NCBI GenBank assembly: GCA_945897825.1
Contig: CAMDGX010000012.1
Coordinates: 1 to 64,000 of the forward strand
Direction: 5' to 3'
Source of the DNA: Asaia bogorensis
GTDB taxonomy: Bacteria > Pseudomonadota > Alphaproteobacteria > Acetobacterales > Acetobacteraceae
DNA length: 64,000 bases
A program made the position numbers and the translations under genes. The notes under the pieces are model-generated. The model was not told where the DNA came from. It did not search any database and worked only from the letters and a program-made list of their open reading frames with translations. This document shows positions 5,680 to 10,217 of this stretch, piece by piece. Position 1 is the first letter of the stretch. Each line of letters begins with the position of its first letter.

Positions 5680-6468
5680 TCAGCCGGCCAGCCCAAGGCT
5701 GCGCGCCAGCATGTAGAACGCGACCACCAGGATCAGCGCGGCGAACACCTGCGTCAGCCGCCCGCGCCGCGCCGCCAGCTTTCGCCCGGCGCGCTGGCCC
5801 AGCAGGCTGCCCGCCACGCCGCCGGCAATGAAGATGCCCGCCATGCCCCAATCCACCAGCCCGGCCACGGCATAGCTCCCGGCCGTGGTCAGCCCGAACG
5901 CCGTCACCGCCACCAGCGAGGTGCCGACCGCCTGCAGGATCGGCATCCCGGTCGCCAGCACCAGCGCCGGAACGATCAGGAACCCGCCGCCAATCCCGAA
6001 GAAGCCGGACACCGCCCCGACCCCCAGCCCCGCCCCCAGCAAGCGCGGCGCATTCTCCCGGTCCAGCCGCACCACGCGGTCGATATCGGCCTCGCGCCGG
6101 CGCAGCATCAGCACCGCGACGACCACCATCATCCCGGCGAAGGCCGCCAGCAGCGACTGGCCATCGACCATCCGCCCCACCCACGCGCCAAGCAGGGCGC
6201 CAGTCACCCCCATGGCCGAGAACACCGCCGCACAGGGCCAGCGCACATTGCCCGCCCGGGCATGGCCGAGCAGCCCCAGCGCGGCGTTCGCGGCCACCGC
6301 CACGGCGCTGGTGCCGATCGCCAGGTGCGGCGAGGGCATACCGACCAGATAGACCAGCAACGGCACCGCCAGGATCGACCCACCGCCGCCCACCAGCCCC
6401 AGCGTGAACCCGACCATCGCGCCGGACCCCGCGCCGAGCAGCGCCTCGAGCGCCGAGATCGTCTGCAT
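5680..6468 (-). CDS. TSUP family sulfite exporter TauE/SafE
   Basis: About 262 residues with roughly eight membrane segments and the two-fold TSUP signature: a glycine-rich LGLVGGGGSIL in the first helix pair and FGIGGGFLIVP in the fifth helix. The family moves sulfur-containing anions such as sulfite, thiosulfate or organosulfonates across the inner membrane. It is divergent from a persulfide dioxygenase-like gene, an arrangement seen in sulfide-detoxification loci. The ATG at 6468 is chosen because AAGG lies upstream and the longer form adds a non-hydrophobic extension. It ends three bases from modA, tail to tail. Confidence 0.82.
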   Translation of the reverse strand: MQTISALEALLGAGSGAMVGFTLGLVGGGGSILAVPLLVYLVGMPSPHLAIGTSAVAVAANAALGLLGHARAGNVRWPCAAVFSAMGVTGALLGAWVGRMVDGQSLLAAFAGMMVVVAVLMLRRREADIDRVVRLDRENAPRLLGAGLGVGAVSGFFGIGGGFLIVPALVLATGMPILQAVGTSLVAVTAFGLTTAGSYAVAGLVDWGMAGIFIAGGVAGSLLGQRAGRKLAARRGRLTQVFAALILVVAFYMLARSLGLAG

Positions 6469-6568
6469 CAGATGCAACCTTTCCGTCCACAGGCACGTTC
6501 CGCCCACGAGACGTCATGAGGGCAATCCATGCCCTTGGCGAGCCCGAAAGCGCCCCGCGTCCGGCCCC

Positions 6569-6605
6569 AATTCAGCTTGAATTTAGTAAGTCTTTTCTTA
6601 TATTC
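6569..6605. promoter_or_regulatory. AT-rich dyads in the divergent TSUP/persulfide dioxygenase promoter
   Basis: Two dyads occur in the 180-bp divergent region: AATTCA-GCT-TGAATT at 6569-6583 (perfect six-base arms) and GAATTTAGTAAG with CTTATATTC at 6579-6605 (imperfect). The stretch is far more AT-rich than its surroundings. In related loci the persulfide sensors BigR/SqrR bind AT-rich ATTC...GAAT dyads, so this is a plausible operator. No such regulator is encoded in the window. Confidence 0.4.
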
Positions 6606-6648
6606 CAGTCAAGCCACCACCACCCGACCGAACCGCCCGGAGGTCATC

Positions 6649-7530
6649 ATGCCCGCCCCCATCATCCGCCCCTTCTTCGACGAGCCGACCAACACCATCA
6701 GCTACCTGGTCTGGGACCCGGCGACGAAGGAAGGCGCGGTGATCGACCCGGTGCTCGACTGGGACAACCGCTCCGGCACCGCCGACACCGCCTTCGCCGA
6801 CCGCGTGCTCGCAGCCGCGGCGCAGGAGGGCGTGACGATCCGCCTGGTGCTCGAAACCCACGCCCATGCCGACCACCTCACCGCCGCCCCCTACATCAAG
6901 GCGAAAACCGGCGCGCCGATCGGCATCGGCGAGCAGATCAAGGACGTGCAGCGCATCTTCCGCCCGGTGTTCGACGCCCGCGACGTGAAGCCCGAAGGTG
7001 CCGATTTCGACCGCCTGTTCAAGGATGGCGAACGCTTCCGCCTCGGCGCGCTCGAGGTTGAGGTGATGCACCTGCCCGGCCACACCCCGGCCGACATCGC
7101 CTACCGCATCGGCGACGACGTGTTCGTGGGCGACACGATCTTCATGCCCGACTACGGCACCGCCCGCGCCGACTTCCCGGGCGGGGACGCGCGCACCCTC
7201 TACCGCTCCATCCGCCGCCTGCTGTCCCTGCCCCCCGAGACCCGGCTCTGGATGTGCCACGACTACAAGGCACCCGGCCGCGACAGCTACGCCTGGCAAA
7301 CCACCGTCGCCGAGCAGCGCGCGCAGAACCCGCATGTGAAGGACGGCATCACAGAGGACGAATTCGTCGCCTTCCGCACCGGCCGCGACGCCACGCTCGC
7401 CGCGCCGCTGCTGCTGCTGCCATCGATCCAGGTGAACATCCGCGCCGGCCGCTTCCCGGAGGCGGAGGCGAACGGCGTGCGCTACCTCAAGGTGCCGGTG
7501 CGCACCCGCAGCAAGGAGGCCCTGTCGTGA
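6649..7530 (+). CDS. MBL-fold persulfide dioxygenase-like hydrolase (Blh/SdoA type)
   Basis: 293 residues of metallo-beta-lactamase fold. Metal ligands are visible as HAHADH at residues 71-76, LPGHTP with His145, GDTIF with Asp162 and WMCHDY with His204. The block [17 protein letters not shown] is characteristic of the bacterial ETHE1/Blh branch, which oxidises glutathione persulfide to sulfite. It is followed without a gap by trxC and then a DUF2892 protein, with a TSUP exporter divergent. The set fits sulfide or persulfide detoxification with sulfite export. GGAGG is about five bases upstream of the ATG. Confidence 0.83.
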
Positions 7531-7970
7531 GTGAGCCCGTCCACGTCGTTTGCCCGCACTGCGACGCCGCCAACCGTGTTCGTCTCGATCGCGCCGATGC
7601 GGCCCGCTGCGGCGCCTGCCGCGCGGCGCTGTTCGACGGCAAGCCGGTCGCGCTGTCGGAAGAGCGCTTCCGTCGCCACGTTCGCCTGTCCGGCATCCCG
7701 CTGCTGGTCGATTTCTGGGCCTCCTGGTGCGGCCCCTGCCGCGCCATGGCCCCGGCCTTCGAGGCGGCGGCCAGGGAGCTCGAACCCGCAATGCGCCTGG
7801 TCAAGGTCTCCACCGAGGAGGCCCCCGCCCTGGCCCAGGAACTGCGCATCAGCAGCATCCCCACCCTGGCCCTGTTCGCCGGCGGGCGGGAGGTGGCGCG
7901 CCAGCCCGGTGCGCTGCCGAAGCAGCAGATCCTCGCCTGGGCTGCCCAGGCCGCCAGCCGCGCCGCTTGA
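7527..7970 (+). CDS. trxC: Thioredoxin 2 (TrxC-like) with N-terminal zinc ribbon
   Basis: 147 residues starting at a GTG that overlaps the preceding stop (GTGA), with AAGGAGG at an ideal distance. The N-terminus carries a CPHC...CGAC zinc ribbon (Cys9, 12, 28, 31), and the thioredoxin domain has WCGPC at residues 67-71, both diagnostic of TrxC. It is a cytoplasmic disulfide reductase, typically zinc-bound and induced by oxidative stress. Its position directly after a persulfide dioxygenase suggests it reduces protein or low-molecular-weight persulfides here. Confidence 0.87.
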
Positions 7971-8043
7971 CGTGCATCAATGAGGCCGGCCGACCACCCT
8001 GGCACCTTGTCGCCGGCCATCCCCTCGCCCAAGGAATCCTGAC

Positions 8044-8241
8044 ATGACCCGCAATGTCGGCGGCATCGACCGCCTCCTCCGCGTCGTCGCCGGCCTCGTC
8101 CTGATCGGCCTCGCCCTGATGGGCACCATCGGCTGGTGGGGCTTCATCGGCATCGTGCCGCTGGCGACCGCGGCGATCGGCTACTGCCCGTTTTACCCGC
8201 TGCTCGGCATGAACACCTGCCCGACCAACCGGCACGCCTGA
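8044..8241 (+). CDS. DUF2892 small membrane protein (YgaP-like membrane domain)
   Basis: 65 residues. The sequence begins MTRNVGGIDRLLRVVAG and has two hydrophobic segments separated by WWGFIG, then GYCPFYPLLGMNTCP; the conserved CPFYPLLG pattern is diagnostic for DUF2892. In YgaP this domain is fused to a rhodanese; here it stands alone at the end of the persulfide operon, a common arrangement. Two conserved cysteines near the membrane could carry sulfane sulfur, but that is inference. AAGGA lies upstream of the ATG. Confidence 0.82.
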   Translation: MTRNVGGIDRLLRVVAGLVLIGLALMGTIGWWGFIGIVPLATAAIGYCPFYPLLGMNTCPTNRHA

Positions 8242-8272: not shown

Positions 8273-9664
8273 TCAGCCGCAGCACCCCTTGCCCGCGCCC
8301 ACCGCGACCGGCGTGGGCGCGCAGCAGCCCGCCTGCCCCGCCGTCTGCGGCGCGCAGCAGCCCGACGACGTATCGACCGTCGCCGGCCCGCAGCACGCTG
8401 AGGCCGCCGGCAGGTCGGTCGCGCACACGCCGGTTTCCGGCAGCTCCAGATGCACCTCCCGCGCCGCCACCCAGTCGCCCGCTGCCGCGGCCGCGATGCT
8501 GCGCACCTGCTCGTAGCCGGTCGCCAGCAGGAAGGTCGGCGCCCGGCCATAGCTCTTCATGCCGGCGATCCAGAACCCCGCCTCGGGGTGGCGCAGCTCC
8601 GCCTCGCCATGCGGGCGCACCGTGCCGCAGGAATGCAGGTTGGGATCGATCAGCGGCGCCAGTGCCGGCGTCGCCTCCACCGCCGGGTCCAGTTCCAGCC
8701 GGACCTCGCGCAGGAACGACAGGTCCGGCCGGAACCCCGCCGCCACGATCATCCGCCCGGCCCGCACGCCGGCCCCGCGCCCATCCTGGCGCCCCGTCAC
8801 CAACAGCATGTCGCCGTCGCGCGCCACGCGGTCGATCAGGAACGGCGCCAGCGCCGTCACCGCGCCGCTTTCCACCAGCGCCTGCGCCCGGCTGCCGAGT
8901 TCGCCGCGCTGCGCCAGCCCGTCGCGCGCCCCACCGCCGAAATTCACCGCCCCGAGCGGCCGGCGGAACGCCCACAGGATGCGCGTCCCCGGCACTTGCC
9001 GCGCCAGCTCCACCAGGTCCAGCACCGCGTTCATCGCCGAATGCCCGGCGCCCACCACCAGCGTCGTCGCGCCGGCATAGGTCGCGCGCGCCGCCCCCAG
9101 CACGTCGGGAATGCCATAGGCGATGCGATCGCCATTCGCCGCCTCGCCGGGCGCCATCATGCCATGCGCCCCGGCCGGGTTGGGCGCGCCCCAGGTGCCG
9201 GAGCAATCCACCACCCCGGCCGCCTCCATCGCCTCGACCGCGCCATCCTGCGCCACGTGCACCACGAAGGGCGCCGCATCCCGCCCTGCCCCGTCATGCA
9301 GCCGCCCATGGTCGCGCCGCGCGATGCCCACCACCCGCGCACCGGTGCGGATGCGCCCGCGCAGCGCCGGGCTCGCCGCCAGCGGCGCCAGGTAGTCGCG
9401 CACCAGCTCGCCGCCGGTCGGATACGCTTCGGGATCAGGCTCCCGCCAGCCATCCGCCGCCAGCAGCGCCCGCGCCGACGCATCGGTGTTGTAGCGCCAG
9501 GGCGAGAACATCCGCACATGCGCCCAGTCGCGCACCGCGTGCCCGACCGCCGCGCCGGCTTCCAGCACCAGCGGCTCCAGCCCGCGCGCCAGCAACTGCG
9601 CCGCCGCCGCCAAGCCTACGGGCCCGGCACCGATCACCACGAACGGAAGGGAGGACTGCGCCAT
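8273..9664 (-). CDS. FAD/NAD(P)-binding flavoprotein monooxygenase-like with a cysteine-pair C-terminal tail
   Basis: About 463 residues. An FAD Rossmann motif VVIGAGPVGLAAAAQLLARG lies at the N-terminus and a second dinucleotide motif LVVGAGHSAMNAVLDLVE lies mid-protein, as in flavin monooxygenases and the ArsO-like proteins of arsenic loci. The last 45 residues are unusual: four Cys-Cys pairs (ACCG, GCCA, GCCA, GCCG) separated by short Ala/Gly/Thr linkers, with no similar tail in ordinary FMOs. The tail looks like a thiol-rich metalloid- or metal-binding appendage. A PadR regulator lies 66 bp upstream on the same strand. The ATG at 9664 follows a GGAG. Confidence 0.75.
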   Translation of the reverse strand: MAQSSLPFVVIGAGPVGLAAAAQLLARGLEPLVLEAGAAVGHAVRDWAHVRMFSPWRYNTDASARALLAADGWREPDPEAYPTGGELVRDYLAPLAASPALRGRIRTGARVVGIARRDHGRLHDGAGRDAAPFVVHVAQDGAVEAMEAAGVVDCSGTWGAPNPAGAHGMMAPGEAANGDRIAYGIPDVLGAARATYAGATTLVVGAGHSAMNAVLDLVELARQVPGTRILWAFRRPLGAVNFGGGARDGLAQRGELGSRAQALVESGAVTALAPFLIDRVARDGDMLLVTGRQDGRGAGVRAGRMIVAAGFRPDLSFLREVRLELDPAVEATPALAPLIDPNLHSCGTVRPHGEAELRHPEAGFWIAGMKSYGRAPTFLLATGYEQVRSIAAAAAGDWVAAREVHLELPETGVCATDLPAASACCGPATVDTSSGCCAPQTAGQAGCCAPTPVAVGAGKGCCG

Positions 9665-9730
9665 GACATGCTCCATCGATGCATTGACCATCAAGGTATA
9701 GCGCCACGCAGCGCGCCAGGCAAGCCCCCG

Positions 9731-10126
9731 CTACCGGCCCGAAAACGCCCGCCCGGTATCCTGCAGCGCCGCCGTCGCCTCCATCCACGCATCCAGCGCC
9801 ACCCGGAACGCCGCCCGCCCCTCGTCCGTCAGCGCATAGACCCGGCGCTGCCGCCCCTGCACCACCTCCTCCTCGACCGTCACGAACCCGCCGGTCTCGA
9901 ATTCGCGCAGCACCGGATAGATCGTCCCCTCGGTCGGAGAGCAGCATCCGCCCGTCACCCGCGCCACCGCGCGCGCCACGTCGTAGCCATGCATCGGCCC
10001 GTCGTGCAGCACGCGCAGGATGAAGAATTTCGACAGCCCCATCTTGATCGTCCCCGCCCAATAGGCGCGGGAGGCATAGTCGACGCGGGGCGGGGAAACC
10101 GGGCGGGGTGTTGGCATCCCCCGCAT
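9731..10126 (-). CDS. PadR family transcriptional regulator
   Basis: About 131 residues. The winged-helix PadR core is clear: FFILRVLHDGPMHGYDVARAV, then TEGTIYPVLREFETGGFV in the recognition region, and RRVYALTDEGRAAF in the wing. A Cys pair sits directly before the TEGTIYPVL motif (GGCCSPTEG), at the start of the DNA-reading region. With the Cys-pair tail of the neighbouring flavoprotein, this suggests thiol- or metalloid-responsive repression. The start is uncertain: ATGs at 10126 and 10117 are both possible. It is divergent from the agmatinase-like gene with a gap of about 90 bp. Confidence 0.78.
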   Translation of the reverse strand: MRGMPTPRPVSPPRVDYASRAYWAGTIKMGLSKFFILRVLHDGPMHGYDVARAVARVTGGCCSPTEGTIYPVLREFETGGFVTVEEEVVQGRQRRVYALTDEGRAAFRVALDAWMEATAALQDTGRAFSGR

Positions 10127-10217
10127 ATACCCATCGCCCCCCAAGGCATCAACCCTCACCGCCTGCCCAGCCCCCGCCGCATCGTCCATACTGCGCGCCC
10201 CAGCCCAGGAGCCCCGC

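Follow-up and report, generated by a model that had tools for sequence, protein, structure and literature searches.

A PadR gene and a gene for a flavoprotein with a cysteine-rich tail

The window, a stretch of 64,000 nucleotides from an Asaia bogorensis contig, harbours on its minus strand the gene of a PadR-family regulator followed by the gene of a flavoprotein (Table 1). The listed open reading frame of the flavoprotein opens at TTG 9694, and a GGAG sequence lies 6 nt 5′ of the likely ATG at 9664. Convergent with this gene is a sulfur cluster (5680-8241) encoding a TauE/SafE exporter, a persulfide dioxygenase-like MBL protein, a thioredoxin with an N-terminal zinc ribbon and a YgaP-like membrane protein. 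The MBL protein scored 370 bits against Blh, under the cut-off of 625. An agmatinase is also among the neighbours, and no ars genes are. The window flavoprotein has no adjoining MFS gene; the nearest MFS relative (63%) lies on contig C45 of the window genome. Outside the window's contig, this genome also carries ACR3 (381.7 bits, cut-off 282.8).

Table 1. Genes, cysteine sites and predicted operators at the locus (window coordinates)
Feature	Coordinates	Strand	Remarks
Flavoprotein	8273..9664	-	463 aa from likely ATG at 9664; ORF listing and predicted FAD/NAD(P)H fold
Cys tail of flavoprotein, after invariant LPETGVC	8276..8422	-	Four Cys-Cys pairs; predicted disordered, pLDDT <50
Cys424 of LPETGVC, flavoprotein	8423..8425	-	Invariant in 36 proteins
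Cys356 of flavoprotein core (NLHSCGTVRPHG)	8627..8629	-	Invariant in 36 aligned sequences
Operator 2 (predicted), strict 21-bp inverted repeat ATGCATTGA-CCA-TCAAGGTAT	9679..9699		Immediately 5′ of flavoprotein start
PadR-family regulator, 128 aa	9731..10117	-	Alternative start ATG 10126; PF03551 match and predicted structure
Cys58-Cys59 codons of PadR	9941..9946	-	Just before recognition helix
Operator 1 (predicted), degenerate inverted-repeat copy	10129..10149	-	20.1 bits; 27-bp motif at 10127-10153

The flavoprotein matched Pyr_redox_3 of Pfam at 48.7 bits. In the predicted structure, most of the core was modelled well, and residues 351-362, 383-387 and the tail poorly. The best fold match of the model was the bacillithiol disulfide reductase YpdA (Z 31.8, rmsd 2.5, 320 aligned residues), followed by flavin monooxygenases that use FAD and NAD(P)H (Z ~25). 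Membership of the YpdA/Bdr family (TIGR04018) was rejected, with 38.2 bits against a cut-off of 339.9. An assignment as thioredoxin reductase was also rejected, as the CxxC motif is absent from the window protein and from the six plasmid relatives compared. The original prediction had pointed to FMO-like ArsO proteins as known from metalloid loci, a name that had to be abandoned for the protein: the score against the ArsO model (NF040505) was 29.9 bits with a cut-off of 425, and identity to the true ArsO of Streptomyces FR-008 was 26-27%. Relatives are annotated in their records as 'NAD(P)-binding domain-containing protein' or 'FAD-dependent oxidoreductase'.

The tail ends in ...LPETGVCATDLPAASACCGPATVDTSSGCCAPQTAGQAGCCAPTPVAVGAGKGCCG and carries Cys-Cys pairs at residues 434/435, 446/447, 457/458 and 471/472 (numbered from TTG 9694); eight of the eleven Cys of the protein fall in the last 49 residues, as these four pairs. 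The pairs had already been pointed out from the sequence, and their presence and positions were confirmed. Shuffling rarely reproduced them. Not one of 20,000 whole-protein shuffles had even two Cys-Cys pairs in the final 45 residues, and shuffles of the tail only reached four pairs in 66 of 100,000 cases. Among 69 flavoprotein tails, the spacing, the length and the number of pairs (0 to 4) vary; Cys434 of the first pair was at least 90% conserved in 36 proteins. Pairs that persist while their spacing changes are easier to reconcile with a flexible tether for metal(loid) binding than with a structured domain. In MerA and ArsD, vicinal thiols catch a soft metal(loid) and then hand it on, and the tail resembles the C-terminal Cys pair of MerA and the Cys pairs of ArsD in its vicinal thiols, by analogy only. 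One could also suppose that the PadR and the operator described below are real, that the substrate of the flavoprotein is an organic xenobiotic and that the tail serves a structural role or oligomerisation. The monooxygenase folds among the next-best matches and the varying tail length and spacing agree with this supposition; the pairing of 358 of the 383 tail Cys across the 69 proteins and the association with ars genes in three phyla argue against it, and we regard it as very improbable.

Two flavoproteins (L102 and L104) have tails similar in length with no Cys-Cys pairs, possibly owing to a frameshift. Near another cassette, a 321-residue rhodanese-domain protein (L107:3664-4629) has a Cys-Cys tail of its own, which suggests that such a tail is a portable module.

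Concerning the regulator, the protein scored 69.5 bits against PF03551, whose cut-off is 27, and no second PF03551 protein was found in the window genome. Its predicted fold, with helices at 17-39, 44-55 and 63-75, two strands and a helix at 98-127, corresponds to a winged helix with a C-terminal dimerisation helix. The best structural matches of the model were PadR structures, and when the protein was searched against Pfam/NCBIfam-type models at E 0.01, it matched no ArsR/SmtB model. The window PadR reads VTGGCCSPTEGTIYP. The original prediction had placed a Cys pair before the DNA-reading motif, and this held: in the predicted structure (mean pLDDT 89), Cys58-Cys59 falls in the turn that leads into the recognition helix (residues 63-75).

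We then searched a collection of 84,980 species genomes for relatives, using an alignment built from 16 PadR proteins, and kept the best 80 of 110; among the 80 loci, several are near-identical or stem from a single species. The Cys pair was present in all 80, a set biased toward the pair because one of the two search patterns contained CC; eight were matched by the Cys-free pattern alone, and all eight have the pair. A control set of 30 PF03551 loci, out of 39 matches listed, came from 40 genomes that included the window genome. Ten of these loci are Cys-pair PadRs beside the flavoprotein. The other 20 PadRs adjoin no flavoprotein and are devoid of Cys pairs throughout; they lack Cys at the equivalent position (19 aligned there, one unaligned), where Ala-Tyr or Thr-Tyr are the commonest residues. 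A Cys-less version of this PadR beside a tailed flavoprotein, the case named beforehand as a refutation, occurred in none of the 80 loci.

Most relatives carry further Cys in their last 25 residues, at least two in 73 of the 80, one in six and none in one. The window PadR has no C-terminal Cys and only two Cys in the whole protein, and a three-thiol arsenite site is thus not universal. Its reading frame ends (9731-9760) before the C-terminal Cys typical of the relatives, either by natural loss or by sequencing error.

The predicted operator

A 21-bp inverted repeat, ATRCMTYGA-N3-TCRAKGYAT, overlies the padR promoter in all 80 loci. These promoters have a TTGAYG-like -35 element, a 17-bp spacer and a TA-rich -10 element, with the repeat in between; in the window, operator 1 sits between a -35-like TTGATG and a -10-like TATATG. 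The model was built from the 80 upstream regions, using 76 unique sites aligned on a seed taken from them, and the presence of operator 1 is therefore partly built in. Independent tests were provided by operator 2, the controls and a strict-pattern search. A second copy of the repeat lies before the downstream gene in 67 of the 80 loci, with none found in 13 at the threshold used. Elsewhere in the 888 kb of the 80 loci there was a single match. The chosen centre of symmetry was the best of 24 tried, with a mean overlap of 0.64 against 0.19-0.57 for the others. In ten loci, 20 column-permuted models gave 0-1 matches, and the real model 32.

With up to three mismatches, the window genome contained three matches, two of them at the cassette, and a reversed control gave none. 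The strict repeat was found nine times in 200 genomes of the order, each time at a PadR-flavoprotein locus, and again the reversed pattern gave no match. Only nine were found among the 32 cassettes in these genomes because most sites are imperfect. A regulon beyond the cassette was unsupported in the window genome and in the 200 genomes of the order.

The site was also examined where regulator and flavoprotein part company. In flavoprotein loci under ArsR or MarR (8 + 17 + 7 = 32 loci, 281 kb), there were zero sites of at least 15 bits. Copies of the repeat do occur before genes for ArsP (Cupriavidus), an MFS protein (G585) and a transferase (G330), which indicates that the site tracks PadR and not the flavoprotein. 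Among the 20 other PadR loci of the control, a site was found in one only, L189, where a 25-bit match (L189:1867) lies 5′ of an unrelated PadR.

Judged from sequence comparison, the predicted operator and autoregulation by PadR are strongly supported. The operator, which was absent from the original prediction, is the strongest evidence obtained.

Gene neighbourhoods and a probable link to arsenic

The flavoprotein gene directly follows padR in 75 of the 80 loci. In four of the five remaining, an MFS gene takes this position, and at L155 an MFS gene is followed by pieces of the flavoprotein gene further on. An ArsK-like MFS gene lies within 3.5 kb in 65 loci, at least one ars marker (ACR3, ArsC, ArsA, ArsD, ArsO, ArsN or an ArsR-ArsC fusion) was present in 40, and 12, several of them on short contigs, had neither. 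Genes were labelled here by BLAST searches of a limited reference collection, compiled from the proteins of the window and of plasmid records, so that genes lacking a counterpart in it escaped notice. Relatives in the genus of the window carry the PadR-flavoprotein pair and then a convergent MFS gene and an ArsR-ArsC fusion. The ArsK model (NF033733, cut-off 400) was met by the MFS protein of Ensifer with 513 bits and missed by those of Roseomonas (241.8), the window genome (an ArsK-like protein on another contig, 227.6) and L143 (153.2). No Cys-Cys tail was found on 60 MFS exporters.

The downstream gene can differ. On a Cupriavidus plasmid, pRK1-4 (L160, one PadR plasmid match chosen of 21), the Cys-pair PadR and its operator are followed by an ArsP-type permease, and trivalent organoarsenicals are described as export substrates of ArsP in a passage of PMC12607644. 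After the permease gene comes an 89-residue protein (L160:8297-8566) that consists of three near-repeats, each with a Cys-Cys pair, and has no Pfam/NCBIfam match. In G330, a gene for a glutathione-transferase-like protein whose C-terminus is Cys-Cys comes after that of a sister PadR form (CCTPREG), and a true ArsO is nearby. Under the same operator, the sister form with such a transferase-like gene was read at L242:6747-7490 and at L241; the L241 transferase reading frame is apparently shortened, and an integrase-like gene comes next. A record titled Mycobacterium sp. KBS0706 (L149, NZ_VCCH02000093.1) contains an Inquilinus-like copy of the cassette, and its label or assembly may be wrong.

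These neighbourhoods bear on a reading in which the Cys pair of PadR senses persulfide or polysulfide and the YpdA-like flavoprotein reduces persulfides or thiol disulfides. It draws on the persulfide dioxygenase-like protein, thioredoxin, YgaP-like protein and TauE/SafE beside the window cassette, and on YpdA being the best structural match of the flavoprotein model. We consider it improbable: the sulfur neighbourhood was seen in none of the other PadR loci read, whose recurrent neighbours are ars genes and ArsK-like exporters, and the flavoprotein has relatives within ArsR-controlled ars operons. A relative of the dioxygenase (49%) is found ~5 kb from the cassette in five family loci. The sulfur genes of the window were rejected as members of the system, not being conserved in the relatives read.

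The flavoprotein family extends beyond the range of this PadR. In three phyla, ars loci with ArsR or MarR as the regulator contain relatives, and flavoprotein identity was 45-51% in the six compared outside the PadR range. We examined 11 plasmid neighbourhoods, chosen among flavoprotein matches in 133 records. Ensifer has the order ArsR, flavoprotein, ArsK, and ars genes also adjoin the relatives of Shinella, Pseudomonas, Streptomyces FR-008, Arthrobacter, Dietzia, Mycolicibacterium and Cytobacillus. In Rhodococcus, the relative adjoins an ArsR-family gene and an MFS gene. Of 398 sampled genomes of the phylum, 17 besides the window genome had the flavoprotein (E at most 1e-60), with ArsR as the neighbouring regulator in 15 and MarR in two. 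In Acetobacteraceae, 40 sampled flavoprotein loci had PadR in 32 cases and ArsR in eight; a script counted 31 of the 32, the other being L079 with its split or broken flavoprotein gene. Taking into account that the same family is found under ArsR or MarR in ars loci elsewhere, PadR fills the slot of ArsR. The tail is equally kept under ArsR or MarR, and thus belongs to the enzyme rather than to the partnership with PadR. A proposed check, that the Cys of the tail and of PadR should co-occur, was therefore borne out only from one side: this PadR has its pair in every locus where it was found, while the tail persists under the other regulators, and strict co-occurrence was rejected.

Hg(II), Sb(III) and Cd(II) likewise bind to vicinal thiols, and PadR might sense any thiophilic ion, as in a broad soft-metal or an antimony or mercury response, with the tail merely sequestering it. 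Rv3488 of Mycobacterium, a short PadR fold (PDB 5zi8 and others) that is among the best structural matches of the window PadR and ~28-30% identical over the aligned part, binds cadmium. One flavoprotein relative, on a Staphylococcus plasmid, adjoins mer genes including merA, with an ArsR-family gene further on, and a copy on a Roseomonas plasmid adjoins chrA and nickel/cobalt efflux genes. Against this, the adjoining exporters in the loci read are of arsenical types (ArsK-like, ArsP and ACR3), and we judge such a broad response to be unlikely. The suggestion in the original prediction of a metalloid- or thiol-responsive pair is thus supported by the gene neighbourhoods, best for arsenic; its proposal of selenium found no support.

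A proposed mechanism and its relation to known systems

We consider it likely that the locus is an autoregulated PadR repressor cassette for arsenical detoxification, in which a trivalent arsenical releases PadR and an ArsV-like flavoenzyme processes the arsenical. The regulation of the cassette is well supported, arsenic as the inducer rests on gene context, and we infer the enzyme reaction. A PadR dimer would bind the 21-bp repeat over its own promoter and the second copy before the flavoprotein gene, repressing both itself and the downstream gene. Trivalent arsenic, probably organic such as methylarsenite, would be captured by Cys58-Cys59 at the mouth of the recognition helix, probably assisted in most relatives by a second, C-terminal Cys pair. 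From the placement of the pair and the gene context, this capture may shift the reading helix and free the promoter. Judged from its fold, the induced flavoprotein would be an NAD(P)H-dependent FAD enzyme of the YpdA/flavin-monooxygenase type without CxxC, and it most likely oxidises the trivalent arsenical to a less toxic pentavalent form. The flexible Cys-Cys tail may bind the substrate and pass it to an active site near Cys356/Cys424. An exporter would then remove the product; the next gene encodes an ArsK-like exporter in most relatives.

ArsV is a flavoenzyme, and ArsV of Paracoccus and ArsW, reportedly described by Chen et al. in 2021 (Environ Microbiol 23:7550), are said to be a MAs(III) oxidase and an MFS exporter. 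The layout of a flavoenzyme gene plus an MFS exporter in ars loci, seen in most relatives of the cassette but not beside the window copy, resembles theirs; the identity of the flavoprotein with ArsV is a lead drawn by analogy. According to passages of two papers (PMC10080717, PMC11719878), ArsV oxidises methylarsenite or organic arsenicals, and ArsV/ArsW export the product. Control by PadR, in which the present cassette differs, is mentioned nowhere in the passages of the citing papers. ArsO is likewise an FAD/NAD(P)H flavoprotein of ars operons, but that of Streptomyces FR-008 lacks the Cys tail, and the FR-008 cluster holds both families. ArsR/SmtB repressors, including MAs(III)-responsive ArsR, occupy the same gene slot as the PadR described here, whereas the cassette repressor belongs to PF03551 and has its own predicted operator; a two-cysteine MAs(III) site is reported for ArsR in a passage of PMC6514093. 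Among PadR proteins, passages of PMC2936356 describe ChrI of Bacillus cereus SJ1, a PadR-type protein that adjoins a chromate exporter and is induced by chromate, and propose basic residues rather than cysteines for chromate sensing. ChrI and the window PadR family are thus both PadRs beside an oxyanion exporter, but the genes of ChrI differ and its sensing residues, as described there, are not Cys. The nearest precedent found is in PMC6016940, a passage of which gives a network prediction that connects an arsenic-resistance protein with a PadR-like one. PadR is absent from the main text of PMC12652892. The PadR fold, the flavoenzymes of ars loci and the MFS exporters all belong to known kinds. 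No PadR-type arsenical repressor with such an operator came up in the open-access collection of papers searched.

To our knowledge, arsenic sensing in bacteria has been ascribed almost wholly to ArsR-type repressors. It appears fairly likely that Acetobacteraceae and other proteobacteria possess another repressor family responsive to arsenicals, independent of ArsR, which uses the PadR fold, carries vicinal Cys at the recognition helix, has an operator of its own and has displaced ArsR at the same enzyme-exporter cassette. Members with two thiols may be tuned to trivalent organoarsenicals rather than arsenite. If this is the case, the repressor, a PadR whose operator is defined and whose metalloid site is of a different kind, would represent a new type of sensor and an instance of regulator replacement at a fixed gene cassette, as well as a possible biosensor part that might separate organic from inorganic arsenic. 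The named operator makes the regulon immediately testable, and the cassette points to a widespread family of flavoenzymes with a thiol tail, so far annotated only generically in the records read.
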